From positions 1 through 64,000 of the forward strand of contig JACRDG010000006.1 in NCBI GenBank assembly GCA_016218715.1: DNA of 64,000 nucleotides, given 5' to 3'. The translations under genes were made by a program, and so were the position numbers. Positions 40,883 through 63,697 of the stretch are shown here, piece after piece. Under the pieces are notes generated by a model. It worked only from the letters and a program-made list of their open reading frames with translations. It searched no databases and was not told the DNA's origin. The stretch comes from Desulfomonile tiedjei. Its GTDB lineage: Bacteria; Desulfobacterota; Desulfomonilia; Desulfomonilales; Desulfomonilaceae. Position 1 is the stretch's first letter; each line of letters starts with the position of its first letter.

Positions 40883-42216
40883 AACAAGAACAGCCCCATC
40901 ATGTTGACATGCCGTTCCGGTTCCGCGAGAGGCGCCACCCCTAGTTGCCGAGAAAGCGGCTGGAGATCGTGAATGATCTCCTCCATGCTTTGATACCGGA
41001 GTGTCGGGTCTTTTTCGGATGATTTTACGAGAAACCTGTGCAGTTCGTCCGGGAGGTCCGGGATCACGAGACGCGGATCGGGGATATGTTCGTACAAGTG
41101 GCACTGCAGCAGGTTGGCAATATCGTTATCAGGAAAGGCCTCCTGACCGGTGATTATGCGGTATGCGGAGATCCCGAGCGAGTAGATGTCGGACCGTTCA
41201 TCGAGCAGGCCCATGCGGATCTGTTCCGGAGAGAAATACCGCGGGGTGCCCACCAGCCGATCCCCCTTGGTCCCGGGCCGGCGAGCCAATCCGAAATCAA
41301 GGATCTTGGCTTTGTCGTTCTTCTGAATAAAGATGTTTCCCGGTTTGACATCGCCGTGAATGATCCCCTTTTCGTGAGCGTATCCGAGGCCGTGGCATAC
41401 CTGGAGCAGAATATTGAGGGCTCTGGGCAGAGGCACCCGTGTGACTTCCCGCAGCATCTCGACCAGCGATACCCCTTCCAGCTGTTCCATGATGATGAAG
41501 ACCGTGCGATACAGTTGCTCGATGTCATATACCTTGACAATATTCTCGTGGTTCAGATTCGCGATGACCCGCGCCTCATTCTGAAATTTCTCAAGGAAAT
41601 CCGGGTCCATGGCCATGTTGTGCTTGAGCATCTTGATGGCCACAGGCATGTTCAGCATCGTGTGGACCCCTTTGTACACGATACTCCAACCACCTCTCCC
41701 CAGTACTTCGGTGATGACGTACTTCCCGACCGTGCGGTCCGCTGTGAGGGTTGCGCGGGCGAATCGGTCGGTCACGACCTGAGTGAGAAAATGCCGTATC
41801 TCAGGATACTGGTTACAAATCCCTTCGAATGCAGTCCTGCTCAGGCGCCAGAGGTCCATGTCGGTCTGGGCGTCGACGTGAGCGTTGCGGTGCTCACCCG
41901 TCAGGATAGCCATCTCCCCCACCAGGTCGCCTGGACCGAGGACCGCAAGCGGGCGTACAATGCCTGCCTTTTCAAGGCTGACGGAGCACGATCCGTTCTG
42001 AATGATGTAGAAGCTGTCCCCCTCGTCGCCTTGAGCTATGAGGCGCTCTCCGGAAGGCAAATGGACGGGCTTCATGGCTACCATCAGGTGGAATCTCGCG
42101 TCTTCGGGTATTGCCGCGAAAAAAGGAGTTTGAAGCAGGAACTGGTAATCCTGATCAGACATCCTGTCCTTCTTGGTCAAGAGTTCCTTCTTGCCCATGT
42201 CCTCCGGTTCTTTCAT
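40774..42216 (-). CDS. Cyclic-nucleotide-binding domain fused to a Hanks-type Ser/Thr kinase
   Basis: Residues about 30-145 form a CNB domain: GERLIAQGDEGDSFYIIQNG and the phosphate-binding cassette GEMAILTGEHRNAHV with E101 and R110 conserved. A kinase domain spans about 165-425: Gly loop GRGGWSIVYKG, VAIK (K195), E214, catalytic loop IIHGDVKPGNIFI (D289, K291, N294), DFG at 307 and YFSPEQ. The usual HRD is HGD. No membrane segment is seen, so it is cytoplasmic. The order CNB-kinase makes direct control by cAMP or cGMP plausible, as in eukaryotic PKG. GAGGGATTC precedes the ATG. A DUF4384 gene, often tied to such kinases, is divergent from it. Confidence 0.92.
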   Translation of the reverse strand: MKEPEDMGKKELLTKKDRMSDQDYQFLLQTPFFAAIPEDARFHLMVAMKPVHLPSGERLIAQGDEGDSFYIIQNGSCSVSLEKAGIVRPLAVLGPGDLVGEMAILTGEHRNAHVDAQTDMDLWRLSRTAFEGICNQYPEIRHFLTQVVTDRFARATLTADRTVGKYVITEVLGRGGWSIVYKGVHTMLNMPVAIKMLKHNMAMDPDFLEKFQNEARVIANLNHENIVKVYDIEQLYRTVFIIMEQLEGVSLVEMLREVTRVPLPRALNILLQVCHGLGYAHEKGIIHGDVKPGNIFIQKNDKAKILDFGLARRPGTKGDRLVGTPRYFSPEQIRMGLLDERSDIYSLGISAYRIITGQEAFPDNDIANLLQCHLYEHIPDPRLVIPDLPDELHRFLVKSSEKDPTLRYQSMEEIIHDLQPLSRQLGVAPLAEPERHVNMMGLFLFYRSEHEEILKRLVGEFGQELRKIGAVLRDTDFKDI

Positions 42217-47660: not shown

Positions 47661-48734
47661 ATGAAAGAAAAACGTGCCCTGGTCACCGGAATCACAGGCC
47701 AAGACGGAGCATACCTCGCCAAGTTTCTCCTGGGAAAAGGCTATGCGGTGTGCGGAGTCAAGAGACGAAGTTCCCTGATCAATACTCAGAGGATCGACCC
47801 TCTTTACGAGGATCCGCACGTGGAGGATCGGCACTTCTTCTTGGAATACGGCGACATGACCGATTCGACGAATCTCATCCGAGTGATTCAGGAATTCCAG
47901 CCCACGGAGATTTACAATCTCGCTGCCCAGAGCCACGTGAAGGTCTCGTTCGAAACCCCGGAGTATACGGCAAACTCCGACGCCCTCGGTGCATTACGGT
48001 TGCTCGAGGCGATACGCATTCTCAAACTGGAAGACAGGGTCCGCTTCTACCAGGCTTCGACCAGCGAACTCTACGGCCTGGTCCAGGAAACTCCCCAGAC
48101 CGAGACCACACCCTTCTATCCTCGCAGTCCCTATGCGGTCGCAAAATTGTACGCCTACTGGATTGCTAAGAATTATCGAGAAGCGTACGGCATGTTCGCA
48201 TCCAACGGAATACTTTTCAACCATGAGTCGCCGTTGCGCGGGGAGACCTTCGTGACCCGCAAGATCACCCGAGCTGTTGCGCGGATCAAACTCGAAATGC
48301 AGGATACGATGTATTTGGGCAATCTGAATGCCAAACGCGACTGGGGCTACGCCGGAGACTACGTAGAGGCGATGTGGTTGATCCTCCAGCATCATCAGCC
48401 CGATGATTTTGTCATTGCCACCGGTGAGAACCATTCGGTGAGGGAATTCATTGAGGCAGCCTTCCGACACGTAGGCATTTCGGTCGCATGGCAGGGTGAG
48501 GGGATCGGAGAACGCGGCGTCGACACGGAAACCGGCCGCGTCCTGGTCGCAGTCCATCCCCGTTACTTTCGCCCCACCGAGGTGGACGAGTTGCTGGGCA
48601 GCCCTACCAAAGCGCGAGAACTCCTTGGCTGGCAGCCCCGGGTGACCTTCCACGAACTCGTACGGCGGATGGTGGTCGCGGATCTCAAGGAGGCGGAGAT
48701 GGAACGCCTGTGCCGGACCGCGGGGTTCAATTGA
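47661..48734 (+). CDS. gmd: GDP-mannose 4,6-dehydratase
   Basis: The extended short-chain dehydrogenase makes GDP-4-keto-6-deoxymannose for fucose, rhamnose or perosamine synthesis. It has the NADP-binding [24 protein letters not shown], the catalytic Thr-Ser region STSELYG, and the Tyr-Lys pair in [15 protein letters not shown], then [17 protein letters not shown]. The length of 357 residues is normal. It is the first of several surface-polysaccharide genes to the right. Confidence 0.95.
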
Positions 48735-49773: not shown

Positions 49774-50973
49774 TCAAAGACCCTTACCGGCCTTGGTGAA
49801 AGGCCGGATCATGAGTCGGAGCGGGCGCAATGCGAACAGGAGGAACGACAGATTGGCCGGAAGTTTCCAGAATTCACAATCACCAGCGTCCGGGATTACG
49901 AAGCGTTCCAGAGTGAAACGGATCTTGTCTGCGAGCGATTCTCGGGCAGCCAGACGGAACCATAAGGCAAACCATGTCCCGGAAGAATCATTGGGCCGGG
50001 AGAGCAGTCGCTGCACCACCTGTGAAGCGAGGCGATCCACGCCCGGATAGTTCCGCGCGGTCGCAGCTACCGAGTCGGGAAGTCGCGCGTCCACGAGTTG
50101 CCGTGCCAGAAGGAAGCCGAGGAAGAGCATTCGGCGGCAACCGAGATCCCTCGCCTGGTCCACCACCACTTCCCAGTCCAAGGCAGGCGTCCGGGCCACA
50201 TGCTCCGCCACATCGCAGATCCACCCAAAGCGGTCCCAACAGTGGCTTGTCCCGTGAAGGCAGAGCAGCACCAGGGTATCCTCCGCAGAGAGCGTAGGCA
50301 CGGTTCTGCCCTCGAGGGATACCTTTGCCGGTCGGCCCCAGATCTGTTCGTCGCAAAAACGGAGGCAGTTCGTTATTGGTTCCACGGTCCAATGCAGTTC
50401 CGTCGTGATGTGTTTTGCGCGCGACACGAGGAGAAAATGCTTTTGATACCGGATCACCGTTGTTTCCTGTTTCGGTGTCAACCCGTACGGACTGATATAC
50501 CCCTTCTCGGCCAGGAGCAGTCTCGCCCGCGGAGCGTCGTCCCGGTGGATCAGGACGTCCAGGTCGTCGAACTGCCTCAGTGCAACATCCCCATATGCAC
50601 TCGCAGCCAGTGTCGGGCCCTTGAACGGCAGGGCAGGAATGTGGTGAGAGTCGAAAAGGTCGAGAATTTCCATCAATTCGAGGGTTAACTGGTGATTTCG
50701 CGCTGCATTCCCGAGGAACATGCGCCGGAGCCTCTCACGAACATCCGACGGGACGCATTCCCATGCGTGGAGGTTCACATTCCGATAGATCAGGGGAAAA
50801 ACGCCATGGTTGATGGCAGTCTTGATCAGTAGTTCCCAGTCCATGCCCTGCAGGAGCTGAACTGCCACGTCACCTCTCCATTGAGGGTCACGGTGGCTGC
50901 GAGCCAGGTACAGCAGGACGCGCATCTCGGCGCTCACCGTGTTTAGCGGTACCTCGTCCAATCGCTCCGGCAC
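49774..50973 (-). CDS. Nucleotidyltransferase-family protein (PF14907 type)
   Basis: The 399-residue protein matches the uncharacterised nucleotidyltransferase family (NTP_transf_5). ALPFKGPTLAASAYGDVALR is followed by QFDDLDVLIHRDDAPRAR, with the D-x-D metal pair, and by TELHWTVEP and CLHGTSHCWDRFGWICDVAE. Such genes are frequent companions of RiPP and lasso-type peptide clusters and of exopolysaccharide clusters. GTG at 50973 follows GGAGG. It is divergent from the ABC exporter gene across 130 bp and I count it as the left edge of the peptide cassette. The substrate is unknown. Confidence 0.82.
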   Translation of the reverse strand: MPERLDEVPLNTVSAEMRVLLYLARSHRDPQWRGDVAVQLLQGMDWELLIKTAINHGVFPLIYRNVNLHAWECVPSDVRERLRRMFLGNAARNHQLTLELMEILDLFDSHHIPALPFKGPTLAASAYGDVALRQFDDLDVLIHRDDAPRARLLLAEKGYISPYGLTPKQETTVIRYQKHFLLVSRAKHITTELHWTVEPITNCLRFCDEQIWGRPAKVSLEGRTVPTLSAEDTLVLLCLHGTSHCWDRFGWICDVAEHVARTPALDWEVVVDQARDLGCRRMLFLGFLLARQLVDARLPDSVAATARNYPGVDRLASQVVQRLLSRPNDSSGTWFALWFRLAARESLADKIRFTLERFVIPDAGDCEFWKLPANLSFLLFALRPLRLMIRPFTKAGKGL

Positions 50974-51103
50974 TACTCGACCTCCACCACTCGCGTCCGG
51001 GAGAAGCCTAGATGCATCTCAGGCCATTGTCAATTCTCCCCCTCGCAGGCATGGTTGCGAAATTGCTCCCCGAAGCAACGACCACGTGGTATAAGCTCCG
51101 CCT

Positions 51104-52921
51104 ATGAGCCGACTGGAATCGCTGAGAACGAAGCTGAGGACTTTCCTGCTCGTGCGGGTGGCCTTTCACCATGTGTGGCAGTCCGGTCCACGTTGGATGG
51201 TGGCTACGGTCGCCCTCCTGTTTGCCCAGGGACTCGTTCCCCTCTTCGCTCTCTATCTCATGAAGCTGGTTGTCGACGGAGTGGCCGGAGGGATAGCCTC
51301 TCCTGACAAGACGGCCGCGTTCGGTCACGTTGCGTGGCTGATAATCCTTGCCGCAGCGGTAGGGTTGTTTGCCGCGGCCCTGACTGCTCTTTCAGGCATC
51401 GTGCGGGAGTTTCAGAGCGCGGCTTTCCAGGACCACATGCAGGAGATCATCCTGAAACGGTCCGTGGAGCTGGATCTCGAATACTACGAAAACTCGCGGT
51501 ACTATGATGCTCTGGTGCGAGCGCAGCAGGAAGGTTCGTCCCGCCCGGTGAGCATCGTTCATGGGCTTGTTCAGATCGGCCAGAACAGCATCTCCCTCCT
51601 GGCCGTGGCCTCGCTACTGGCCGCCACACACTGGATGGTCACGGCGATCCTCCTGGTCGCAATAGTCCCAGGACTGATCGTGAGGTTCCGGTACGCGGAT
51701 ACCCTCTATGGTTGGCATCGTCGCCACAGCGCGACGCAACGTCTGGCCGCGTATTTCCACTCGCTGCTCACCACCGCGCCCTCGGCCAAAGAGGTCCGCA
51801 TGTTCGGACTCGGACCTACATTCATGCGACGACATCGGGAGCTGCGAACCCAACTCCGGCAGGAGCGTTTCAGACTGTCTGCAACGCTCTCATTGAACGA
51901 ACTCGTCACCCAGGGTTTCGGGATCGTTGCCGTCTTCGGCGTGTTTGCGGTCCTGTCGCGTCGGGTGTTTCAGGGGGAGATGACTCTTGGCGACCTGGTC
52001 ATGTACTACCAGGGGATTCAGTACGGGCTCGGGTACATGCGAGGGATGTTGGCCAGCTTCACGCGAATCTACGAGGACGCGCTGTTCCTCTCTAACCTCC
52101 AGGAATTCCTGGCACTTCGAAATATCGTAGCCGAACCGGACGATCCGGTTCCGGTACCTCGGCCCATACGAGAAGGGATTGCCTTCGAGCAGGTCAGTTT
52201 CCGCTATCCCGGTGACGAGAGGAATGTCCTTCGAGACGTATCACTCAAGATCGGCCCGGGTGAAGTCGTCGCCCTTGTGGGGGAGAACGGCGCCGGCAAG
52301 ACCACCTTGATCAAGCTGCTCTGCAGACTGTACAACCCGGATCGCGGCAGCATCACCATCGACGGAGTGGACCTGGGACGATTGACCACCGCAGCTTTGC
52401 GGAAAGAGGTTTGCCCGATCTTCCAGGACTACGCGAGGTATCATTTGACCGCAAGTGAAAACATCCGACTGGGAGACGTGGAATCGCCCGAAGACCCCGA
52501 GCGTGTCTCGCGATTGGCCCGTTTCGCCGGTGCGGATGAGTTCATACGACGCCTTCCACGCTCCTATGAGACCCAGTTGGGGCGCCTGTTCGCCGAGGGT
52601 GCTGAATTGAGCGTCGGGCAGTGGCAGCGGATCGCCTTGGCTCGTGCGTTCTACCGCGACGGCCAGGTGATCATCCTTGATGAACCGACCAGCGCCTTGG
52701 ACCCGAAGGCGGAGTACGACTTCTTCCAGCGCTTTCGCGAAATGGTGCACGGTCGGCTGGCGATAATCGTGAGCCACCGTTTCTCTACGGTTAGGATGGC
52801 GGACCGGATATACGTGCTCGAGGGCGGAACGGTAATTGAGCATGGCTCACACGAAGAGCTGATGCGTTTGAATGGAACGTATGCCGGGCTGTACAAGCTC
52901 CAGGCGAAGGTGTGGCTGTAG
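51104..52921 (+). CDS. ABC exporter (fused permease and ATPase)
   Basis: The 605-residue half-transporter has six membrane helices over residues about 25-320 and an ATPase domain. Walker A is VGENGAGKTTLIKLLC at about residue 391; the signature is LSVGQWQRIALARAF (Val for the usual first Gly); Walker B is VIILDEPTSALDPKA; the H-loop is VSHRFSTV. There is no N-terminal C39 peptidase domain, so it cannot itself cut a leader. It would act as a homodimer exporting a peptide or lipid. It lies upstream of the PqqD/radical SAM genes and is a likely exporter for their product. Confidence 0.9.
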   Translation: MSRLESLRTKLRTFLLVRVAFHHVWQSGPRWMVATVALLFAQGLVPLFALYLMKLVVDGVAGGIASPDKTAAFGHVAWLIILAAAVGLFAAALTALSGIVREFQSAAFQDHMQEIILKRSVELDLEYYENSRYYDALVRAQQEGSSRPVSIVHGLVQIGQNSISLLAVASLLAATHWMVTAILLVAIVPGLIVRFRYADTLYGWHRRHSATQRLAAYFHSLLTTAPSAKEVRMFGLGPTFMRRHRELRTQLRQERFRLSATLSLNELVTQGFGIVAVFGVFAVLSRRVFQGEMTLGDLVMYYQGIQYGLGYMRGMLASFTRIYEDALFLSNLQEFLALRNIVAEPDDPVPVPRPIREGIAFEQVSFRYPGDERNVLRDVSLKIGPGEVVALVGENGAGKTTLIKLLCRLYNPDRGSITIDGVDLGRLTTAALRKEVCPIFQDYARYHLTASENIRLGDVESPEDPERVSRLARFAGADEFIRRLPRSYETQLGRLFAEGAELSVGQWQRIALARAFYRDGQVIILDEPTSALDPKAEYDFFQRFREMVHGRLAIIVSHRFSTVRMADRIYVLEGGTVIEHGSHEELMRLNGTYAGLYKLQAKVWL

Positions 52922-53090
52922 CGTGGCCCACTTGGACATTCGCTGCGCTCGTCGGATAGATGCCATGATGCAGCGCCGTCATAGCAGGGGATCGACTCGA
53001 CACGCATTCCAAACCGTTTCTGAGGCAAAACATCGACTTCAAGACCGCCGGCCAACGGGGTTCCTGCAGGACAATTCCACCGTGAAATCC

Positions 53091-53119
53091 TTGACTTCTT
53101 GGCTCGCGTATCCTAGTGT
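53091..53119 (+). promoter_or_regulatory. Promoter of the PqqD-radical SAM operon
   Basis: TTGACT (53091-53096) and TAGTGT (53114-53119) are spaced 17 bp in the 390-bp gap between the ABC exporter gene and the pqqD-like gene. The leader is about 185 nt. The rest of the gap shows no gene. Confidence 0.5.
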
Positions 53120-53311
53120 TGTAAGCAGGATGCGACAGGCCAGCCACGCTTCGGCCCGGCAATCCGCGGCAAAACCTTTGGCATAGTAACCATCGGCTCG
53201 GCTGCCTTCCCGGCGCGTCGTGAATGGGCGCGTGAGCCTGTGTGCTTCCGAGATACCGTTGGGCCACGAGGATCGGCCTGGCGGGCTTTGATGCTTCGGA
53301 GGAGACGCCTG

Positions 53312-53608
53312 GTGACGGAACAACCCAAGCCGGTTGCAAACCCCTTGTTGGTCTTGCGGGAAGAATTCGACGATTGGGCGGTGCTGTTCGATCCCGATTC
53401 CGGCGAGGCTTTCGGATTGAACCCCGTGGGCGTCTTTATTTGGAAGCGCCTCGACGGTTTACATACGGAAGAAGACATTTTGAAGGAACTTACTGAAGAA
53501 TGTGAGGACATTCCCGAGGACGCGGCAACCCATGTCTCGGAATTTATCGAAGACCTCGTGAGCCGCGGGTTTGCCGGGTACGAGGTGGGCAAGGACGTGA
53601 TTCCATAA
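53312..53608 (+). CDS. PqqD-like RiPP recognition protein (ScmD-like)
   Basis: The 98-residue protein has the PqqD/RRE fold pattern: VLREEFDDWAVLFDPDSGEA, FGLNPVGVFIWKRLDGLHT, EEDILKELTEECEDIPEDAA and FIEDLVSRGFA. Such proteins bind the leader of a ribosomal precursor peptide and present it to radical SAM enzymes. GTG at 53312 follows GGAGGA by eight bases; an ATG at 53291 has no site. The stop overlaps the next start (TAATG), coupling it to the first radical SAM gene. From memory, the SynChlorMet cassette contains such a PqqD homologue with two radical SAM/SPASM proteins. Confidence 0.88.
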   Translation: MTEQPKPVANPLLVLREEFDDWAVLFDPDSGEAFGLNPVGVFIWKRLDGLHTEEDILKELTEECEDIPEDAATHVSEFIEDLVSRGFAGYEVGKDVIP

Positions 53609-54759
53609 TGAGGTTGATGAAGACCCCTCGTTCGCTCGACCTTCTGCTGACAAGCCGCTGCAACTTGCGCTGCATGTATTGCAGCCATTTCTCCAGTGGA
53701 GGTGAGGTCGATCACGATCTGCCCACTGACCAGTGGCTTGGTTTTTTCGAGGAGTTGACCCGCTGTGCGGTGATGGACGTCTGTCTTCAGGGTGGAGAAC
53801 CTTTCATCCGGTCAGACCTGAGGGAACTTGTACAGGGCATTGTTCGGAACCGCATGCGATTTTCCATTCTGAGCAACGGTACGCTCATCACCGACGAAAT
53901 GGCCGAATTCCTTGCTTCTACGGGCCGGTGCAACAGTGTGCAGGTCTCTATTGATGGGTCCACCCCCTTTGCCCACGATGCATTCAGAGGAGAAGGGAAT
54001 TTCCGCCGGGCGGTGGACGGTCTGAAGCGATTGATAAAACACGGGATCTCGGCCACAGTTCGCGTAACGATCCATCGCAAGAATGTTCGGGAACTCGAGG
54101 CGATTGCGAGGCTGCTCCTGGAGGATATCGGACTCCCATCGTTTTCGACGAATGCGGCCTCTCATTTAGGTCTGTGCCGGAAGAACGCGGAACAGGTGCA
54201 GTTGACGGCCGAAGAACGCTCGCTTGCCATGGAAACCCTTGGGAGGCTGGCCAGAACCTACAGCGGGAGGATAAGCGCTACGGCCGGCCCGCTCGCGGAA
54301 GCTCGGCACTGGTCCCAGATCGAAGAGGCCCGTCGCTGCGGGCTCGAAAGCTTGCCGGGTGGCGGTTATCTCACCGGATGCGGCGGTCCGACGAACAAAC
54401 TGGCCATCCGCGCGGACGGTGTCATGCTCCCGTGCTCGCAGATACCGGATCTGGAATTGGGCCGCATCAACAAAGACGATCTACGGCAGGTCTGGACGGA
54501 GCATCCGATCCTCAACCGGTTCAGGGAACGTGTGAGTATTCCCCTGAAGGAGTTCGCATTTTGCCGAGGCTGCCCGTACGTGAACTACTGCACCGGCAAC
54601 TGCCCTGCCCTCTCGTACACATTGGTGCAGGATGCCTGGCATCCAAGTCCGGACGCGTGTTACCGGAGATTCCTGGAAGCCGGTGGCAGGCTCCCCCGTT
54701 CGGACGGCAATCCCGCTTCTTGGGCTTCCGAAGAAGCAACCCAGCAAGCGGAATGCTGA
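53608..54759 (+). CDS. Radical SAM/SPASM peptide maturase 1
   Basis: The 383-residue enzyme has the radical SAM cluster motif at C18, C22 and C25 (SRCNLRCMYC), the GGEPF motif (CLQGGEPFIRSDL) and VQVSIDGST. The C-terminal SPASM region carries auxiliary-cluster cysteines: TGCGG, VMLPCSQI, FCRGCPYVNYCTGNCPA and a final Cys-Tyr-Arg-Arg. PqqE-like enzymes of this type make thioether or carbon-carbon links in RiPP precursors. It is translationally coupled to the pqqD-like gene. Its sequence differs clearly from the second radical SAM protein, so each may install a different bond or act in sequence. Confidence 0.93.
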   Translation: MRLMKTPRSLDLLLTSRCNLRCMYCSHFSSGGEVDHDLPTDQWLGFFEELTRCAVMDVCLQGGEPFIRSDLRELVQGIVRNRMRFSILSNGTLITDEMAEFLASTGRCNSVQVSIDGSTPFAHDAFRGEGNFRRAVDGLKRLIKHGISATVRVTIHRKNVRELEAIARLLLEDIGLPSFSTNAASHLGLCRKNAEQVQLTAEERSLAMETLGRLARTYSGRISATAGPLAEARHWSQIEEARRCGLESLPGGGYLTGCGGPTNKLAIRADGVMLPCSQIPDLELGRINKDDLRQVWTEHPILNRFRERVSIPLKEFAFCRGCPYVNYCTGNCPALSYTLVQDAWHPSPDACYRRFLEAGGRLPRSDGNPASWASEEATQQAEC

Positions 54760-54846
54760 GCGGAAACGCTTGAAAAGAGATCTTTACACGAACATCGAAA
54801 AAGCGAACAGAGTGCGGTCCCTATCCAGCGCCCGCTGCGGACAAGA

Positions 54847-55998
54847 ATGATGACGGAAACGGAAATGAACCCGCGGAGCCAATTCCCTCTGCATCAGCTC
54901 TACTTTTACCTGACCTCCGGCTGCAACCTGAGGTGCAGACACTGCTGGATAGCACCGACCTTCGAGGAAACAGAGCATTCCACTCGATCGCTCGACCCGG
55001 ATTTGTTTCGGTCCGTCATCGCCCAGGCCAAGCCGCTGGGGCTTAGCGCGGTCAAGCTCACCGGCGGGGAACCGCTCTTACATCCGGACATCGAAGGTAT
55101 TCTGGACCATATTCGGCAGGAAGAACTCAGTCTCACGGTGGAGACCAACGGGACGCGATGCACTCCCGAGGTGGCCGCCAAGTTACACGCGTGCAACACT
55201 CCGTTCGTGTCGGTGAGCCTCGACGGCTCGGACGCAGAGACTCACGAGTGGATTCGCGGGGTCCCCGGCTGCTTCGATTCGGCGCTGGAAGGGGTGAAGA
55301 ATCTTGTAGCCGCGGGATTTCATCCTCAAATCATCATGACGGTCATGCGCCGAAACCACCACCAGATGGAGTCTCTGGTGAGGCTGGCCGAATCCGTCGG
55401 GGCCGGCTCGGTGAAATTCAACCTGGTCCAGCCCACGTCACGAGGAGAGCGGATGCACGAGCGGGGAGAGACCCTCGATGTGTCCCAACTCGTGGCGCTG
55501 GGAAGATGGGTGGAACGAGAGCTTGCGCCTCAGGCCCGGGTGAAGATCTTCTACAGTCATCCGCCCGCGTTTCGTCCCCTGGGGCGGATGTACGGCGACA
55601 ACGGAGACGGCGCGGGAATTTGCGGCATCTTCGGCATCCTGGGTGTTTTGGGGGACGGTAGTTATGCGCTCTGCGGGATAGGAGAGAGCGTCCGGGAACT
55701 TATCTTCGGGCACGCGGAATCGGATCGACTCGAGGAAGTGTGGAACCACCACCCGATCTTGACCGAAATCCGGGAAGGGCTACCAGCCAAATTGGAAGGT
55801 ATCTGCTCGCGGTGTCTCATGCGGTCTCAGTGTCTTGGGAATTGCATTGCCCAGAACTACTACCGGTCGAAGCACCTCTGGGCGCCGTTCTGGTACTGCG
55901 AAGAGGCCGAAAAATCGGGATTGTTCCCGGAAACGCGGGCTGCGCTCGAAAAGACCAGCGGGGGCCGAGAATTGAGCGTCTGCGAGCTGAGTGGATGA
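54847..55998 (+). CDS. Radical SAM/SPASM peptide maturase 2
   Basis: The second 383-residue radical SAM protein has C26, C30 and C33 in SGCNLRCRHCWIAP, LTGGEPLLHPDIEGIL, VSVSLDGSDAETH and IIMTVMRRNHHQME. Its SPASM part shows ICGIFGILG, YALCGIG and ICSRCLMRSQCLGNCIAQNY. The start is at 54847 or a few codons later (ATG at 54850 also in frame). It lies 87 bp after the first radical SAM gene and 157 bp before the candidate precursor. The pair of PqqE-like enzymes with a PqqD is the defining set of the SynChlorMet cassette as I remember it (ScmE and ScmF); which is which I cannot tell. Confidence 0.93.
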   Translation: MMTETEMNPRSQFPLHQLYFYLTSGCNLRCRHCWIAPTFEETEHSTRSLDPDLFRSVIAQAKPLGLSAVKLTGGEPLLHPDIEGILDHIRQEELSLTVETNGTRCTPEVAAKLHACNTPFVSVSLDGSDAETHEWIRGVPGCFDSALEGVKNLVAAGFHPQIIMTVMRRNHHQMESLVRLAESVGAGSVKFNLVQPTSRGERMHERGETLDVSQLVALGRWVERELAPQARVKIFYSHPPAFRPLGRMYGDNGDGAGICGIFGILGVLGDGSYALCGIGESVRELIFGHAESDRLEEVWNHHPILTEIREGLPAKLEGICSRCLMRSQCLGNCIAQNYYRSKHLWAPFWYCEEAEKSGLFPETRAALEKTSGGRELSVCELSG

Positions 55999-56155
55999 AT
56001 GCCCACCCCAAACCCTGTTGCTTCTTCGGAAGGTCTTCGTGCGCCGGTCCGAGGGCGCGAAGCCACCGGCCGAGGAGGCTGCCCGCGACGAATGCGAACC
56101 ACGATAGAATCTGTTCTTGCCGTCTGGCATGGCTTGGACGTGACGAGGGGGTAAA

Positions 56156-56455
56156 ATGACTTACGAAAGACCGAAGCTCATAACGCTGACCGGAGGCGCC
56201 TGGAAAACGGCGGGACAGTGCGCGTCAGGAGGAAGCAACCCCGACCCCGCAGGGTGTGTGACCGGCATCGGCGCGAGGCAAGGACCCTGCAGCACCGGAG
56301 CGGTCCCGAGCGCGAGTGCGACTTGCGGCTACGGCCCCGGCGCGGCTGGCTGCAATACAGGTGACTCGGCCACCTCACCCGGATGCACGAACGGTTTTTC
56401 CGCGACGGGCGGCGGCGCGAACTCCTGCAACGGCGGATTGAGCCCGACGCCGTAG
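56156..56455 (+). CDS. Candidate RiPP precursor peptide with seven Cys-x-x-Gly units
   Basis: The 99-residue peptide starts with a short charged segment (MTYERPKLITLTGG, residues 1-14) and a linker AWKTAGQ. The rest is almost only Gly, Ala, Ser, Thr, Pro, Asn and Cys. Cysteines lie at 22, 34, 45, 57, 66, 77 and 91, each followed by two residues and Gly: CASG, CVTG, CSTG, CGYG, CNTG, CTNG, CNGG. The spacing is 9-14 residues. GAGGGGG precedes the ATG at five bases. It lies directly after two radical SAM/SPASM genes and a PqqD-like gene and before HprK-like and peptidase genes, so a modified-peptide precursor is the best reading. A Gly-Gly at 13-14 could mark leader cleavage. Its function is inferred. 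Confidence 0.85.
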   Translation: MTYERPKLITLTGGAWKTAGQCASGGSNPDPAGCVTGIGARQGPCSTGAVPSASATCGYGPGAAGCNTGDSATSPGCTNGFSATGGGANSCNGGLSPTP

Positions 56456-56664
56456 CTCCGCAAGAATTGTTTCTGTCGTCCGCGCGTGGTGTACGGCATG
56501 GAGAGCCCCACGACGGCAAGAGTCTTTCTTCCCGACCACGCAGGAACGGCAAAGAATCACTGTGCCCGACACCACTCTCGCGAGGAACCGTGGTGCTCAT
56601 ATTTCGTCCCCCGGGAACGCAGGTACGCTCGCGATCGGAGTTTTCCCAAATTTGAGAGAAGAGC
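56456..56664. other. Gap between the precursor and the HprK-like gene
   Basis: No supported gene. Short frames crossing this gap lack ribosome binding sites and are arginine-rich shadows. There is no T-tract terminator, so read-through into the downstream genes is possible. Confidence 0.4.
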
Positions 56665-57576
56665 ATGCCCGATGCCGCAGCCAGGTCCTATTCTTTGACG
56701 CTGGCAAACAGCCAGTCATGGCAGCTTGTGCCCGCCGCATCTGCCGAAAACCTCGTGCGGGACTTTGCGGCAGTCATGAGGCTCGCACCATCGGACCCCT
56801 CCGACCGATGCAAAGTCATATTCACGTGCCAGGTACCACAGCAAGACGGGGACTCGTTGTGGCGAGCCTCTGACGACGTTGCCGAAGTCTGCGAAGCCGT
56901 CCCTCGTCCCGGTTGGCGGAAAGAGGATTTCGGGCGATTCTGGATCTTGTCGCATCCCGACGTTCATGATGTGGTCTGCTACATTGACCGCCGAATTTCC
57001 GGCAATACGATCATGCCGGACATGGGGAAGGCCCTGATTCCGGTGTTTATCCGTGCACAGCAGGCCGGCGGCATCGTAGCTCATGCAGCGCTTATAGCCG
57101 TCGAAGGGAACGGCGTCCTGCTCGTTGGACCGAGCGGAATGGGGAAGTCGACGTGCGCACGGCGCTTGGGCGCTCCCTGGCGGGCACTCTGCGACGACGA
57201 GGTCCTTGTAGTCCCGGTGGCGGAAGGACCCTACCACGGCCATCCGTTGCCGACCTGGAGCGAACTCTTCGCCCCAGAGATACGCAGGACCTGGGATGTG
57301 GAAGAACATGTTCCCCTCAGGGCAGTATGTTTTCTGGAACGCTCGACGGAGAACAAGCTCGAACCCATAGGACCTGGGCAAGCGGCGATCCTCATCAATA
57401 AATCGCTCCAGACGATGAGCACACCATACGGCTATGCCTCAAGGAAAGAGGAACACCAGGCCGGCAGGCGTGCCGTGTTCGCGAACGCCTGCCGGCTCGT
57501 GGAGTCGGTCCCGTCTTTCATGCTCCGAGCCGGTCTCACGACCCGATTTTGGGAGATGATTGAAGAGGTCCTGTGA
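56665..57576 (+). CDS. HPr-kinase-like protein of the peptide cassette (ScmC-like)
   Basis: The 303-residue protein has a Walker A motif VGPSGMGKSTCARRLG at about residues 153-168 and an acidic pair in RALCDDEVLVV, the layout of HPr-kinase-related proteins that accompany PqqD genes in peptide and polysaccharide clusters. The N-terminal 130 residues are unlike HprK and resemble no domain I know. It lacks the second HprK signature. In lasso-type clusters such kinases modify the peptide, for example by phosphorylating a C-terminal residue, but for SynChlorMet the role is unknown. It overlaps the next gene as TGATG. Confidence 0.78.
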   Translation: MPDAAARSYSLTLANSQSWQLVPAASAENLVRDFAAVMRLAPSDPSDRCKVIFTCQVPQQDGDSLWRASDDVAEVCEAVPRPGWRKEDFGRFWILSHPDVHDVVCYIDRRISGNTIMPDMGKALIPVFIRAQQAGGIVAHAALIAVEGNGVLLVGPSGMGKSTCARRLGAPWRALCDDEVLVVPVAEGPYHGHPLPTWSELFAPEIRRTWDVEEHVPLRAVCFLERSTENKLEPIGPGQAAILINKSLQTMSTPYGYASRKEEHQAGRRAVFANACRLVESVPSFMLRAGLTTRFWEMIEEVL

Positions 57577-58283
57577 TGATCCCTCTCGAAAGGTCTCAGG
57601 ATAAGTCCCTACAACTCCGGCAGCCGTCGGACCGGGGTCCCTCGACCGCTGCAGGGATCACGAAATTCGATCGAGGGGAAATGATCTTCTACACCGGACC
57701 GAGCATGAATCCGACGCTCAGGGCGAAAGACCTCCTTCGGGTAACCTCTTACGAAGGGGTGCGGATTCGTCTTGGCGACGTGATCGTCTTCACCTCTCCT
57801 CAAGACGGACGAAATGTTACGCATAGGGTCGTGTGGGTCGATGCGCGAGGCCTCCTTGGAACCCGTGGCGATAACAACTCGGCCGGCGATCCCTGGACTC
57901 TGACCCGTGACCAGGTGCAAGGCAAGGTGACTCATGCACAAAATGGGGAACGACTCCGACCGGTGCGGGGAGGTACGCCAGGCCTTGTCATCCACCTATT
58001 GCTCAGAGGCCGGCGACTATTGCTGAGCCCCTTGTGGTCGTTCGCCCGAGCAGCCTATTATTGGCTCGCCAGGACCGGCGTCGTGAGGAGATTGTGCCGC
58101 GATCGAATGAACTTCAGAGTTGTTTCATTCCGACGTCCTGATGGCAAGGATGAACTCCATCTCCTGCTCGGGGCCCGCCTTGTCGGCCGGCTCCGGCCCG
58201 GCCAGTCGGAATGGTATATCGCGCCGCCCTTTCGCCTGGTGGTGGACGAAACGTCGCTCCCGCGAACAGGTTCGCCCCAATGA
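57576..58283 (+). CDS. Signal-peptidase-like (S26) protease, Ser/His type
   Basis: The 235-residue protein has the S26 catalytic serine in TGPSMNPTLRAKD at about residue 43, RLGDVIVFTSP, and NVTHRVVWVD where bacterial signal peptidase I would have Lys. GTRGDNNSAGDPW is box E. A histidine in place of lysine points to the Ser/His (S26B) form known from ER and archaeal signal peptidases. A hydrophobic stretch at about 145-172 could anchor it. Translationally coupled to the HprK-like gene, it is a candidate leader peptidase for the Cys-rich precursor. That role is inferred. An in-frame GTG at 57573 adds one residue. Confidence 0.83.
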   Translation: MIPLERSQDKSLQLRQPSDRGPSTAAGITKFDRGEMIFYTGPSMNPTLRAKDLLRVTSYEGVRIRLGDVIVFTSPQDGRNVTHRVVWVDARGLLGTRGDNNSAGDPWTLTRDQVQGKVTHAQNGERLRPVRGGTPGLVIHLLLRGRRLLLSPLWSFARAAYYWLARTGVVRRLCRDRMNFRVVSFRRPDGKDELHLLLGARLVGRLRPGQSEWYIAPPFRLVVDETSLPRTGSPQ

Positions 58284-58295
58284 CCTCTCCCACCG

Positions 58296-60494
58296 TCATG
58301 ACTCCCGGCGGTACTGAGGGGTGTACGCTCCGCGATAATAAGCTCGGGAGTACTTGTACCCGTACCAGCGACCAGGCGAACGGACCTTGTTGAGAACAAC
58401 GCCGAGGAGACGAGGTTTTCGGGAAGATCCGGTCAGTCTGAGAGATTCCTCGAATTCCCGTCGGTCTATCCGCCCGTCCTGAACTACCAGGACCGTTCCG
58501 TCAGTAAGGTCGCTCAGAAGCAGGGCATCAGGGAGACCGAGCAGTGGCGGCGCGTCGACCACCACATAATCAAAGGCACCCTTCAATTCGTAGAGCAACT
58601 CACGTGTGCGGCTGGACCCGAGGATCGCCACCGGGTCGTTCGGGAGGGGTCCGGACATCATAATGAAGAGTCGCGGCAGGTGGCTGGGGTGAACCATTCG
58701 CCTCCAGTCTCGGTTGCCTTCGGAGACAAGAGTCGCCAACCCAGCCCCAACATGTTCCTGTCCGAATAGCTTGTGGATTCTGGGTCTGCGCAGGTCCGCG
58801 TCCAGAAGGAGAACCCTCTTGGTCGGATCGAGGGACAGTACCGCGGCGAGAGAGACCGCGATGAGGGTCTTCCCCTCACCCGGGATTGAACTCGAGATCA
58901 CGATACTCCTGATGGGGCGCCCGTAGTCGGACAGGAGAATCGAAGACTCGACGTTCCTCACCGCTTCGTAGATAGGGGAACGAGGGTCGTGATGCGCAAG
59001 AAACTCGTAACGGCTCGCCGCCCCTCCCGGCGGGTTCCAGCCATGGGTTTGGTCCAAGTCGGGTATGCTGCCGAGGATGCGGCACCGGAATTGCCGCTGG
59101 ATGTCCCGTGCCCCTCTCAGGCTCGGATCGATTCCGTCCAGAAGGAGGGCCAGCAGAATTGCAGCGATAGTGCTCGCGCCGAATCCTATAGTTATTTGTC
59201 GCAGGTACCGGGGAGGGACAACGTCCGTGGTAGGCGCATGGGTTACCGTGAAGTCGTTGGACTCACTTTCGGCCCTCTGGGTAGCCTTTTTGTACTCACT
59301 GAGAAGCAGGTCGTACAACAATTCATCGCTCTGCAGTTCCATCGTAAGGAATCGATGCTGGGGTCCCAGTGCCCTCACCCGCGTCAGGTCATCTTCCGCC
59401 TTCTCGATCTCTTCCTTGAGACGGGCCTCCTCCTGGTGCCGGAGGTTCTCGGCCGATGAGGCAGCGTCTTGTTCATGTTCGGAGATAGTGTTTCGGAGGA
59501 AGTCCATCTTCTTACGGAGCGCGGCCATTTTCACAGAATCCGCATCGTAGGTCTGTCCCAGTTGGCCGTATCGGGCTTCCAGAGCAACGAGTCGTTGCTT
59601 CAAGGCCCCGATGGTCCTGCCGTCCCGGGGCTGATCCTGACCGGACGCGAAGGCCGATTCTGCCGCGTCGGTACCGGTCGGCCCGACAAGCGAACTGCGT
59701 AGTCGTTGGAGCCATCGTTCCGTCGAATCTTCCGGGAGTCCTTCTCCTCGTTCTCCGGAAAGGTACCCTTCCTGTTCGGCCAACTCAAGGACTGAAGCCT
59801 TGGATTTGCTGAGGTTTTTCTCTGCTTCTACGAGTTCCACATGGAGCCAGGCCTTGGCTTTAAGCGCGTCGGCACGTTTCTTTTCTTGGTAGTATTCCCC
59901 AACAACATTGAGATACCCTTCCAAACTCCAGGCCGCGAGGTGAGGATCCGTTGACATAGTGCTCAAGACTATTTCCGGGCGGTCCTTCAGGGCAACGCAG
60001 AACGCGGGAGGTATAGCGATCGGTAGGCTGAGCTTCTCCGGGATTCGTTCTTCTACGGGAGATGTTCGTCCCACGGCCGCATCGGTTCCGTGAGCTGCGC
60101 GCTCCCGGACGTAGTCCTCGACCGCTCCGCGGACACGTATGGAATTCAGAATTTCCTTCAGGGTGTTGGTACGAAAAAAAATGTAGGACTTGTAGTACTT
60201 ATACCCAGATTCGGTCCGAGAATCGGGTCCGTAGATGTGTCTTTCGGCCGGGTCCAGCAGCGTGACGGTTGCGATCGAGAAATACTTCGGTGGGCGTCGA
60301 GAGACCAGATAAACCGTTGCGCACAGGCCTATGGCAATGACCGCGAGCACCAGCCATTTTCGTCTCAAAATGCTTTCAACGCGATCGCGGACAGTCTTGT
60401 CGTAGTCCGGCTCGAAGCCGTCGAAATAGCCGTCCGGCGGATTGTCCGATTGTGCGGATGGCCTTGGCCTCTGATTGTCGTGAAACGTTGCCAT
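58296..60494 (-). CDS. Wzz-type polysaccharide co-polymerase with BY-kinase domain
   Basis: The 732-residue protein has an N-terminal membrane helix (LVLAVIAIGLCATVYLV), a Wzz chain-length region, long coiled coils, a second helix at about 450-470 and a C-terminal bacterial tyrosine kinase: Walker A' SSSIPGEGKTLIAVSLAAVL, VLLLDADLRRPRIHKLFG and VVVDAPPLLGLPDAL. The tail WYGYKYSRAYYRGAYTPQY is tyrosine-rich, the usual autophosphorylation cluster. It controls export or chain length of an exopolysaccharide. ATG 60494 is preferred; TTG 60533 would add 13 residues. It converges with the peptidase gene, leaving 12 bp. Confidence 0.92.
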   Translation of the reverse strand: MATFHDNQRPRPSAQSDNPPDGYFDGFEPDYDKTVRDRVESILRRKWLVLAVIAIGLCATVYLVSRRPPKYFSIATVTLLDPAERHIYGPDSRTESGYKYYKSYIFFRTNTLKEILNSIRVRGAVEDYVRERAAHGTDAAVGRTSPVEERIPEKLSLPIAIPPAFCVALKDRPEIVLSTMSTDPHLAAWSLEGYLNVVGEYYQEKKRADALKAKAWLHVELVEAEKNLSKSKASVLELAEQEGYLSGERGEGLPEDSTERWLQRLRSSLVGPTGTDAAESAFASGQDQPRDGRTIGALKQRLVALEARYGQLGQTYDADSVKMAALRKKMDFLRNTISEHEQDAASSAENLRHQEEARLKEEIEKAEDDLTRVRALGPQHRFLTMELQSDELLYDLLLSEYKKATQRAESESNDFTVTHAPTTDVVPPRYLRQITIGFGASTIAAILLALLLDGIDPSLRGARDIQRQFRCRILGSIPDLDQTHGWNPPGGAASRYEFLAHHDPRSPIYEAVRNVESSILLSDYGRPIRSIVISSSIPGEGKTLIAVSLAAVLSLDPTKRVLLLDADLRRPRIHKLFGQEHVGAGLATLVSEGNRDWRRMVHPSHLPRLFIMMSGPLPNDPVAILGSSRTRELLYELKGAFDYVVVDAPPLLGLPDALLLSDLTDGTVLVVQDGRIDRREFEESLRLTGSSRKPRLLGVVLNKVRSPGRWYGYKYSRAYYRGAYTPQYRRES

Positions 60495-61023
60495 GCTTCC
60501 AAATAGCTCGTCGGGTTGTAGGCGCTCCCGCAAGAGCGTCAGGCGGAGCGGCCGACGACTCTACGTCGCGGCAGCTGTGCCAATGCCCAAGAGTACCGAT
60601 AGCATACTCAGCTGGTACTGGCAAATCGAGGCGAGGATTCTGGAGCGCGGATCAGTGAAACTCGCGGCGCTGTGTCGCTGCGGAACGGGCAACCGTTGAG
60701 TCATCCGGGGCAACAACTCAACGCTGTTTACTCAACGACAATTCCGTGATCGCACATAATCGCTACACCGAGGACTCTGGTCCGGACGTCGTCCCGACTG
60801 AGGTCGGGAACCAGTCTTTCCTGCATGGATTCCAACCTCCACGGGAATTACGGAACGGGAACTGCTCTCTTTGGTGGTCCAGATCGAGCACTCGCGCGCC
60901 CGAGCGCACGTGAATGGATACCGGAAGGCATTTTGCGTGGCTTTGGAAAAGAAGGAGTGATATCATAGGCCTTCTTGATGCCGACCAAGAACCTACTGTT
61001 GCCTTGCATTGGGGACACCAAGC
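60495..61023. other. Intergenic region with extragenic repeat hairpin
   Basis: No gene is supported. A perfect 7-4-7 hairpin TCCCGAC-TGAG-GTCGGGA lies at 60792-60809, within DNA that translates on the minus strand to RKDWFPTSVGTTSG, a string typical of dispersed extragenic repeats rather than of proteins. Confidence 0.45.
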
Positions 61024-62454
61024 ATGACTGCTCTAGAAATTGAGTATCAGCGAGATCGCCGGGCTCATTGGGATTCTCTCGCGCTGAAACGAGACGGTGA
61101 CCGCAGTTGGGGACGATTCTATCACCAACGTATAACGGAGATCTTTCGGTTTCTCGTCTTACCCGGTCAGCGAGTGATCGAGATCGGGTGCGGGCGAGGC
61201 GATCTTCTCGCTGCGCTCCGGCCGTCGGTGGGCGTTGGGGTAGACTTCTCTGCGGAGATGATCCGCCTCGCCGAGGCTCGGCATCCGGAACTTCGCTTCA
61301 TCCAGGCGGATGCCCATGAACTGGAGTTGCAGGAGACATTTGATGTCATCATCATGTCCGATCTGGTCAATGATCTCTGGGACGTTCAGACGGTTTTCCA
61401 GAAGGTGGCCGCACTGGCAGGGCCCCATACACGGGTTATCATCAACAGCTACAGCCGGCTCTGGGAGATACCGCTGTCCATTACCCGGCGGCTCCAGTTG
61501 GCGTCACCCACTCTGTATCAGAATTGGCTAACCGTTGAGGATATCCACAATATTCTGGAATTGTCCGACTTCCAGGTAGTGCGACACTGGAGCGAGATAC
61601 TCTTCCCATTGGACGTACCGCTCTTGGAGCCGGTCTTGAACCGGTTTCTCGTCAAGCTGTGGCCCTTCCGCATAGCGGCTCTGACCAATTTCGTGGTTGC
61701 CAGACCCGTACCTACTGACCTGCCAAGGAAAGAAGAACCGCTCGTCTCAGTGATCGTGCCGGCGCGAAACGAGGCCGGCCACATTTCCGAAATTCTCAAA
61801 CGGACACCGGAAATGGGGGGCGGAACCGAGATCGTCTTCGTGGAAGGGCACTCAACTGACGGTACGTACGAAGCGATCCAGCAGGCGGTGGCCGAAAACC
61901 CCGAACGGAAGTGCAAGATTTTCAAGCAACCCGGAGCGGGAAAAGGGGACGCGGTGCGAACGGGTTTCGCCAATGCAGATGGCGAGATCCTTATGATTCT
62001 CGACGCGGATATGACCGTTCCGCCGGAAGATTTGTCGCGGTTCTACGAGGCCATTCTGTTCGGAAAAGGGGAGTTCGTGAATGGAGTCAGACTGGTCTAC
62101 CCCATGGAGGACAGGGCGATGCGTTTCTTCAACCTCCTGGGCAACAAGTTGTTCAGTCTGGTCTTCTCGGGTCTGCTCGGCCAGCCCATCAAGGACACGC
62201 TGTGCGGCACCAAGGTCCTCTGGAAAAAGCACTACGAACTCATAGCCGCCAACCGAGCCTACTTCGGCGAAATAGATCCCTTTGGGGATTTCGACCTGAT
62301 CCTCGGCGCCGCGCGTTTGAACCTGAAAATCGTCGATCTGCCCATTCGCTATCGCGAGCGCCGGTACGGCACGACCAACATTCAACGCTGGAAACACGGG
62401 ATCATTCTCTTGAAGATGGCTTATCTTGCCGCATGGCGCCTCAAGTTCATCTAG
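61024..62454 (+). CDS. SAM-dependent methyltransferase fused to a family 2 glycosyltransferase
   Basis: About 476 residues in two domains. The N-terminal domain has VIEIGCGRGDLLAALRPSVG, GVDFSAEMIRLAEARHPELR, and FDVIIMSDLVNDLWDVQ, a class I methyltransferase core up to about residue 230. The second half, from about residue 240, is a GT2 domain of the dolichol-phosphate-mannose-synthase type: VSVIVPARNEAGHISEIL, FVEGHSTDGTYEAI, GKGDAVRTGFANADGEILMI, the metal site LDADMTV and FGDFDLILGAARL. There is no C-terminal membrane domain. The start at 61024 follows GGGGA; a TTG at 61009 is in frame. It lies in a surface-glycan neighbourhood. Confidence 0.9.
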   Translation: MTALEIEYQRDRRAHWDSLALKRDGDRSWGRFYHQRITEIFRFLVLPGQRVIEIGCGRGDLLAALRPSVGVGVDFSAEMIRLAEARHPELRFIQADAHELELQETFDVIIMSDLVNDLWDVQTVFQKVAALAGPHTRVIINSYSRLWEIPLSITRRLQLASPTLYQNWLTVEDIHNILELSDFQVVRHWSEILFPLDVPLLEPVLNRFLVKLWPFRIAALTNFVVARPVPTDLPRKEEPLVSVIVPARNEAGHISEILKRTPEMGGGTEIVFVEGHSTDGTYEAIQQAVAENPERKCKIFKQPGAGKGDAVRTGFANADGEILMILDADMTVPPEDLSRFYEAILFGKGEFVNGVRLVYPMEDRAMRFFNLLGNKLFSLVFSGLLGQPIKDTLCGTKVLWKKHYELIAANRAYFGEIDPFGDFDLILGAARLNLKIVDLPIRYRERRYGTTNIQRWKHGIILLKMAYLAAWRLKFI

Positions 62455-62582: not shown

Positions 62583-62648
62583 GACTTGGCGTGCAATGGC
62601 GAGCCTCGCGTCGCGCTGGCCGCGGGAGAACCGGAGAACCGAAGGAAA

Positions 62649-63245
62649 ATGATGAAAGCATGCTTTGGTGTGGCCTTGCGAGCAATGGCGATCCTGCTGC
62701 TCTGGAGTTCAGTCGGAATTTCGCTGAATCTTTTTTCCGCAAATGCAATCCCGTGGGTATACGTTCCGCCTCCGGATTTGGAAATCTCCGGCGTGAAGAT
62801 CCCATTGATTGATGAGAAGGAAGCACGGAAACTCCTTGATGACCCCTCAGTCGTCTTCGTGGACACCCGGACTGCGAAAGACTATGCAAAAAGCACCGTA
62901 AAGGGCGCACAGTCTTTGCCCCGCAAGGAGATGGAAGAACGATTCATTCTCATCCAACCGCTCCTCCCGGAAGAAGCACGGCTCGTGCTCTTCTGCTACG
63001 GGCCCCAGTGCGAGGATGCGGAACGAGTAGCTGAATTCCTGATCCCCATGGGTTACCGAAATCTCGTGATCATGTCCCCCGGCTTTCCCGGATGGGAGAA
63101 GGCCGGCTATCCCGTTGATTCCGGCCCTGACAAAGAGCTGGGCGGGAAACAACCGGACCCCACCTCGGCCACCGGCGGAGACAACTCAGGCCCAACCTCC
63201 GGTCCTTCGACAGGCTCCGCGCAGAGCACCAGAGGCGACAAATGA
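62649..63245 (+). CDS. Exported rhodanese-like protein
   Basis: The product has an N-terminal hydrophobic segment (RAMAILLLWSSVGISLNLF) and a rhodanese domain: IDEKEARKLLDDPSVVFVDT, VKGAQSLP, and the active loop LVLFCYGPQCEDAERVAEFL with Cys as first loop residue. The C-terminal 40 residues are Gly/Ser/Thr-rich and disordered. It is likely a periplasmic sulfur-transfer or sulfur-binding protein. The start at 62649 follows AAGGAAA. Its stop overlaps the MauE-like start by 4 bp (ATGA), so the two are made together. Confidence 0.82.
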   Translation: MMKACFGVALRAMAILLLWSSVGISLNLFSANAIPWVYVPPPDLEISGVKIPLIDEKEARKLLDDPSVVFVDTRTAKDYAKSTVKGAQSLPRKEMEERFILIQPLLPEEARLVLFCYGPQCEDAERVAEFLIPMGYRNLVIMSPGFPGWEKAGYPVDSGPDKELGGKQPDPTSATGGDNSGPTSGPSTGSAQSTRGDK

Positions 63246-63697
63246 AATATCTCACGTTCGCCGCGCGACTCTTCATCGGAGGCTTGTTCGTCTACGCCAG
63301 CATCCACAAGATAACCGATCCGGCGCAATTCGCCGTAAGTATCAGAAACTACATGATACTGCCGCCGGAGTGGAGTCACTTGGTAGCGCTCGCGCTCCCC
63401 TGGGTGGAAATAGGCGCCGGGGCGTTCCTCATCCTTGGCATCCAGACCAAACCGTCCGCGCTCCTCACTACCGGAATGCTGGCCGTATTCCTGGTCGCGA
63501 TAGCGCGAGCATATGCCACGGGACTCGACATCGATTGCGGCTGCTTTTCGTCAGCGGCCGCCTCCCATGGCCGCGTTGATATCTATCACCTCGTGAGAGA
63601 CTCGCTCATTCTCCTCGTGTCTCTCTTCGTGCTGCTCGCAGACCGGGGTGATTTCTGCATCTCCGGATTGTTCTCTTTGCGCGGCCGCCCTGTTTGA
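63242..63697 (+). CDS. MauE/DoxX-like membrane protein
   Basis: The 151-residue protein has four membrane helices of the MauE/DoxX type: LTFAARLFIGGLFVYASIHK with the conserved Lys, WSHLVALALPWVEIGAGAFL, a third helix and LILLVSLFVLLAD. A cysteine pair stands in DIDCGCFSS after helix 3, as in methylamine-utilisation MauE, where the family acts in electron transfer or disulfide handling. Coupling to the exported rhodanese suggests a membrane step in periplasmic thiol or sulfur chemistry. Confidence 0.85.
   Translation: MKYLTFAARLFIGGLFVYASIHKITDPAQFAVSIRNYMILPPEWSHLVALALPWVEIGAGAFLILGIQTKPSALLTTGMLAVFLVAIARAYATGLDIDCGCFSSAAASHGRVDIYHLVRDSLILLVSLFVLLADRGDFCISGLFSLRGRPV

Follow-up and report, generated by a model that had tools for sequence, protein, structure and literature searches.

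Does the region between positions 49774 and 58283 of the 64,000-nt stretch of Desulfomonile tiedjei DNA analysed here (the window) encode a complete SynChlorMet (Scm) RiPP pathway, from the precursor peptide to its export? By combining the list of open reading frames with the sequence, we found a compact block of plus-strand genes ending at 58283, which codes for an ABC exporter, ScmD, ScmE, ScmF, a 99-aa peptide, ScmC and an S26 peptidase. A preliminary description had read here a PqqD-like protein, two radical SAM/SPASM enzymes, a Cys-rich peptide, an HprK-like protein, an S26 peptidase, an ABC exporter and a nucleotidyltransferase, and all of these were found with the boundaries that it gave. 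We consider it rather probable that the locus is a complete Scm cassette having a processing half like that of linear polyphosphorylated peptide (LPP) and phosphorylated lasso systems, with ScmD, ScmE, ScmF and ScmC, together with the S26, nucleotidyltransferase and ABC proteins, acting as proposed below.

Gene families of the cassette

The gene for ScmD, a PqqD-like RiPP recognition element (53312-53608, plus strand), starts with GTG at 53312 in a frame open from 53240, and its product scored 138 bits with TIGR04248 (cut-off 100). It overlaps by one base the gene for ScmE (53608-54759, plus strand; TIGR04250, 589.8 bits, cut-off 400), followed by that for ScmF (54847-55998, plus strand; TIGR04251, 614.8 bits, cut-off 400), both being radical SAM/SPASM maturases. 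Downstream of the peptide gene (56156-56455, plus strand) lie the genes for ScmC, a kinase-like protein with an HprK/PEPCK fold (56665-57576, plus strand; TIGR04249, 228.3 bits, cut-off 125), and, overlapping it by four bases, for an archaeal-type signal-peptidase-like S26 protein (57573-58283, plus strand; TIGR02228, 54.7 bits, cut-off 51.85). Upstream of scmD, an MsbA-type ABC exporter with transmembrane and nucleotide-binding domains (51104-52921, plus strand; PF00664 and PF00005) matched TIGR02203 with an E-value of 2.8e-84, under the cut-off of that model, and a gene divergent from the cassette (49774-50973, minus strand) codes for an NTP_transf_5 nucleotidyltransferase-like protein (NTP5; PF14907, 215.7 bits, E = 9.9e-64).

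The Scm identity offered in the preliminary description was borne out by the family-model search that it had proposed, as the proteins starting at 53312, 53608, 54847 and 56665 exceed the curated NCBIfam cut-offs for ScmD, ScmE, ScmF and ScmC, each scoring far above the runner-up family. By sequence, the window cassette is a SynChlorMet cassette. That the radical SAM proteins belong to another named family with a known substrate, or that the neighbouring genes are not conserved, does not apply here, since the Scm models match and both the gene neighbourhood and a co-occurring CxxG peptide were conserved in relatives. The suggestion that the window supplies substrate, processing and export together also holds; the window is not special in this respect, because the same set is present at many other Scm loci. 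A literature search for SynChlorMet, the Scm names and the TIGR accessions returned no relevant paper in the collection covered; with no paper found there that names the cassette or its models, the Scm product appears to be uncharacterised.

Polysaccharide-type genes flank the cassette, namely a Wzc-like chain-length protein/kinase (58296-60533, minus strand), a methyltransferase fused to a GT2 domain (61009-62454, plus strand) and a GDP-mannose 4,6-dehydratase (47661-48734, plus strand). Farther downstream, genes for a rhodanese-domain protein and then a MauE/DoxX membrane protein overlap by four bases (62586-63697, plus strand).

The precursor family and its association with the Scm enzymes

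The substrate of the Scm cassette had been described as unidentified; this is wrong at the level of databases, as NCBIfam has a model for the precursor, TIGR04252 ("SCM_precur_ScmA"), and we rejected that reading. The window peptide gave no match to TIGR04252 at E <= 1, and the model matches 30 of 75 homologous precursors. Given this miss, we built the precursor family independently, seeding an HMM on peptides picked by eye in a first set of loci; it then found homologues at most new loci. When the HMM was trained on the 74 other precursors with the window left out, the window peptide was the sole significant match among the 840 ORFs of the window (E = 7.6e-11, the next-best ORF being at 0.14), and its leader alone reached 1.7e-7. 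Going by these profile matches, the 99-aa peptide is a member of the same family as the ScmA precursors, beyond the reach of TIGR04252. Many precursors escape the published ScmA model and are recovered by a profile that combines repeat and leader. Searches of the precursors against Pfam gave nothing meaningful.

The window precursor, with GAGGGGG directly upstream of its ATG, consists of a leader, MTYERPKLITLTGGAWKTAGQ, followed by seven CxxGxx[A/P/N] units (CASGGSN, CVTGIGA, CSTGAVP, CGYGPGA, CNTGDSA, CTNGFSA and CNGGLSP). All seven of its Cys lie in CxxG, a number that shuffling the core of this peptide reproduced at a frequency of 1e-5; this shuffle test and the leave-window-out HMM led us to reject a chance Cys-rich ORF. 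With the 74 relatives, the consensus is YExPxLxxL...AxGxC followed by CxxGxxAxxx repeats, and precursors across the 93 Scm loci analysed are alike in having a leader with YxxPxL and a CxxGxx[A/P] repeat of 10-11 residues. In the family, 397 of 483 Cys fall in CxxG, where shuffles gave 96 on average and at most 121. Successive Cys are most often 10 or 11 residues apart, a Gly at +3 is found in 83% and an Ala/Pro at +6 in 59%, and a precursor has between 1 and 17 Cys, in step with its repeats. The leader motif [Y/W]xxPx[L/V/I/F/A], the same that had guided the first hand-picked seeds, is present in 85 of 86 Scm peptides, and at loci with ScmC its Tyr/Trp is mostly 17-20 residues from the first Cys.

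By searching 395 genomes of the same phylum, we found 18 with ScmE above the cut-off, and 79 loci, partly overlapping with these, came from scanning GTDB genome contigs; since the scan covered the best 80 matches, the frequencies below describe close relatives of ScmE. After removal of duplicates, 93 loci were analysed, window included, using thresholds for neighbouring genes that the analyst set from score gaps; the loci are not independent of each other. Among the 56 near-complete loci (8 kb or more of sequence after ScmE), the precursor was present at 46, ScmC at 34, NTP5 at 33, S26 at 28 and a close homologue of the MsbA-type exporter at 11, and the canonical order D-E-F-A-C recurs in relatives. 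S26 was found at 28 of the 34 loci with ScmC and at none of the 22 without it, a p-value of 3.5e-10 that is indicative only because the loci are related. A precursor without ScmC was present at 15/56 loci, so that phosphorylation would not be universal. Many anaerobic lineages of both bacteria and archaea carry Scm cassettes, among them Desulfobacterota-type bacteria, Chlorobi, Nitrospirae, Omnitrophota, Aminicenantes, Verrucomicrobia, Methanofollis and Methanotrichaceae.

A variant architecture was seen at seven loci (L027, L037, L054, L064, L099, L111 and L112), where ScmE is accompanied by a ScmF-like protein encoded on the opposite strand (the two that were scanned scored 300-335 bits, under the 400-bit cut-off) and a nucleotidyltransferase. 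Their precursors are longer, with a leader PYEPPxxxDL...AyA, and ScmC and S26 are absent; these loci possibly represent a sister family without phosphorylation. At three further loci (L042, L043 and L044), a tandem pair of PqqD-like genes adjoins divergent ScmE/ScmF-like proteins.

The genome of the window holds one ScmE above the cut-off versus three precursor loci and two ScmC genes. The second ScmA-ScmC pair (L133:7571-8906; contig C29 of genome G000, about 40573-41905) consists of a precursor gene followed by scmC (TIGR04249, 242 bits). None of ScmD, ScmE and ScmF adjoins this pair, which is followed by a giant DUF4347/FG-GAP repeat ORF (L133:9490 onward). A third, weaker precursor-like ORF lies on contig C88 (region of L134:6572-6925 and L134:5915-6553, both minus strand), with no ScmC beside it, and adjoins a BamHI-like restriction endonuclease (PF02923) and pilin-like genes. 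Elsewhere, at locus L056, a single ScmD/E/F set is surrounded by seven precursor genes and three copies of scmC. Most simply read, these arrangements suggest that ScmC acts on the precursor next to it and that ScmD, ScmE and ScmF can serve several precursors in trans, and the remote pair supports ScmA as the substrate of ScmC.

Proposed roles of the enzymes

By sequence comparison with solved structures, the best matches of ScmD were a PqqD family protein (9x8z) and the lasso recognition proteins TfuB1 and TbiB1. Such lasso proteins bind leaders with a [Y/W]xxPx[L/V/I/F/A] motif (PMC13381572), and ScmD, as an RRE, would likewise grip the YxxPxL leader and present the peptide to its partners. 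The CxxxCxxC motif and the SPASM cysteines of ScmE are invariant across 19 relatives. From the repeated Cys and from what other SPASM maturases do, we infer that ScmE and ScmF would install radical-derived links on the CxxGxx[A/P] repeats, most likely thioethers on Cys, one per repeat; this analogy is the weakest step of the proposal. SPASM enzymes catalyse several reactions, including C-C and C-O linking and alpha-carbon epimerisation or oxidation, and two distinct maturases suggest two reactions. The Gly at +3 and the Ala/Pro at +6 are as regular as the Cys and could themselves be the modified positions, the Cys later becoming disulfides or metal ligands. The chances are nevertheless against such other chemistry, appreciable as it is, since Cys is the invariant element of the repeat, its number tracks that of the repeats, and no other side chain capable of crosslinking recurs.

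The AlphaFold model of ScmC, of high predicted confidence (pLDDT 89.5), matched PEPCK with a Z-score of 14.8 over 254 residues and also matched HprK/P, the fit to PEPCK structures being better than that to HprK. We take this match, which comes from a predicted model, as reflecting the shared HprK/PEPCK kinase fold and not carboxykinase activity. ScmC would phosphorylate Ser/Thr of the precursor and thereby license removal of the leader by S26. It is unlikely, in our view, that ScmC is instead a nucleotide-binding scaffold or the kinase of another protein. HprK itself phosphorylates HPr, the ScmC match to Pfam Hpr_kinase_C is under the cut-off (26.6 vs 33.3) and sequence identity to the fold match is low, at about 10%, all of which suits a scaffold or another target. 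Against this, 35 of 56 ScmC genes follow a same-strand precursor gene at a distance of at most 700 nt, the remote pair found in this genome is made up of ScmA and ScmC alone, residues H140, K161, D177 and D178 of the nucleotide site are conserved in 54-56 of 56 proteins, and LppK and PadeK provide precedents (PMC13381572, PMC9266682). A Ser four residues after the first Cys was found in 35/59 precursors at ScmC loci vs 7/27 (p = 0.005), and first and later repeats also differed at this position (p = 3e-10). In the window precursor, this position is a Gly with a Ser adjoining; absent at the exact position and confounded by phylogeny, this Ser is left as a lead to the ScmC target.

In S26, residues S44, H84 and D106 were conserved in 41/41 relatives, the best Foldseek matches were signal peptidases, and the structure model had no predicted N-terminal membrane helix. 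This makes S26 the probable leader peptidase as far as sequence and fold can indicate: the soluble enzyme would cut close to the conserved Gly that immediately precedes the first Cys. That S26 never occurs without ScmC is expected if phosphorylation precedes cleavage. We rejected an unrelated housekeeping signal peptidase, as this is the sole such gene in the genome and always accompanies ScmC. NTP5 residues G119, R133, D137 and D139 were conserved in 43/43; the nucleotidyltransferase may decorate the phosphate, with PsmK/PsmN as a precedent for a kinase paired with a nucleotidyltransferase (PMC9266682), and the ABC protein would export the product. The S26, ABC and nucleotidyltransferase genes might alternatively belong to a neighbouring polysaccharide locus, as the GDP-mannose 4,6-dehydratase gene at 47661, a Wzc-like gene on the opposite strand that starts 13 nt beyond S26 and an ABC homologue at so few of the near-complete loci could suggest. 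We regard this as very improbable and, for S26, as largely refuted: its gene overlaps that of ScmC, is found only with ScmC and is single-copy in the 5.55 Mb genome. NTP5 has only one other copy there and recurs at its 33 near-complete loci across phyla.

Relation to known systems

Compared with the SynChlorMet models (TIGR04248-TIGR04252), the cassette agrees in its four enzymes above curated cut-offs and in the order D-E-F-A-C, and differs in that the precursor is missed by TIGR04252 and that S26, NTP5 and the ABC protein are not covered by matching Scm models. The closest likeness of the processing half is with the LPP systems of Bacillota (PMC13381572, May 2026), in which LppB is an RRE that binds YxxP, LppK repeatedly phosphorylates a Ser of the core, and the SpI-like LppS removes the leader, needs LppB and cleaves the unphosphorylated precursor poorly; genes for an NTP transferase and an MsbA-like exporter accompany them in polysaccharide loci. 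The window has all five core classes (SpI peptidase, RRE, HprK-like kinase, NTP transferase and MsbA-like exporter; PMC13381572), including a discrete RRE that would bind YxxP and a soluble archaeal-type signal peptidase with Ser/His/Asp, and it likewise has a neighbourhood of polysaccharide genes. In contrast to LPPs, which are reported as restricted to Bacillota (PMC13381572), Scm precursors are Cys-repeat-rich and lack the motif YxxPxVLxHQxIxFETxxS, the window leader having only YxxPx[L] in common with it, and Scm adds two radical SAM/SPASM enzymes. The term radical SAM is absent from the text of the LPP paper, which does not link the module with such enzymes (PMC13381572). Lacking the LPP motif in its precursor, the window cassette is by definition not an LPP cluster, and the likeness is confined to the processing half. 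The LPP-like accessory set and the adjoining polysaccharide genes lead us to propose that in Scm two radical SAM maturases are joined to an LPP-like module.

The cassette also resembles the phosphorylated lasso systems of paeninodin and pseudomycoidin (PMC9266682, PMC5067487) in its YxxP-type leader, PqqD-like B1 protein, HprK-like kinase, nucleotidyltransferase and ABC transporter, but has radical SAM enzymes in place of a macrolactam synthetase and a B2 cysteine protease. We rejected a lasso cluster, as Pfam and NCBIfam searches found no cyclase and no B2 among the cassette proteins. With sactipeptides and ranthipeptides (ruminococcin C, PMC8188230; thuricin CD, PMC12093266), the cassette has in common a Cys-rich precursor and one or two SPASM maturases, two of them in thuricin CD and ruminococcin C as in Scm. 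It differs in its separate PqqD, kinase and S26 peptidase and in its long CxxG decapeptide-like repeats, and ScmE and ScmF score far below the models of those families (e.g. 92 and 56 vs 340 bits for NF047865 PapB).

Taking these likenesses together, we tentatively propose, as a possible though doubtful generalization, that Scm is a merged RiPP class in which repeat peptides would be crosslinked by two radical SAM enzymes and carry (poly)phosphate or phospho-sugar. In such a class, the kinase would license a signal-peptidase-like leader cleavage, and one ScmD/E/F set would serve scattered ScmA-ScmC pairs. The link to the experimentally dissected LPP module makes the product testable in terms of the kinase substrate, the leader peptidase, the cut site and the number of crosslinks.
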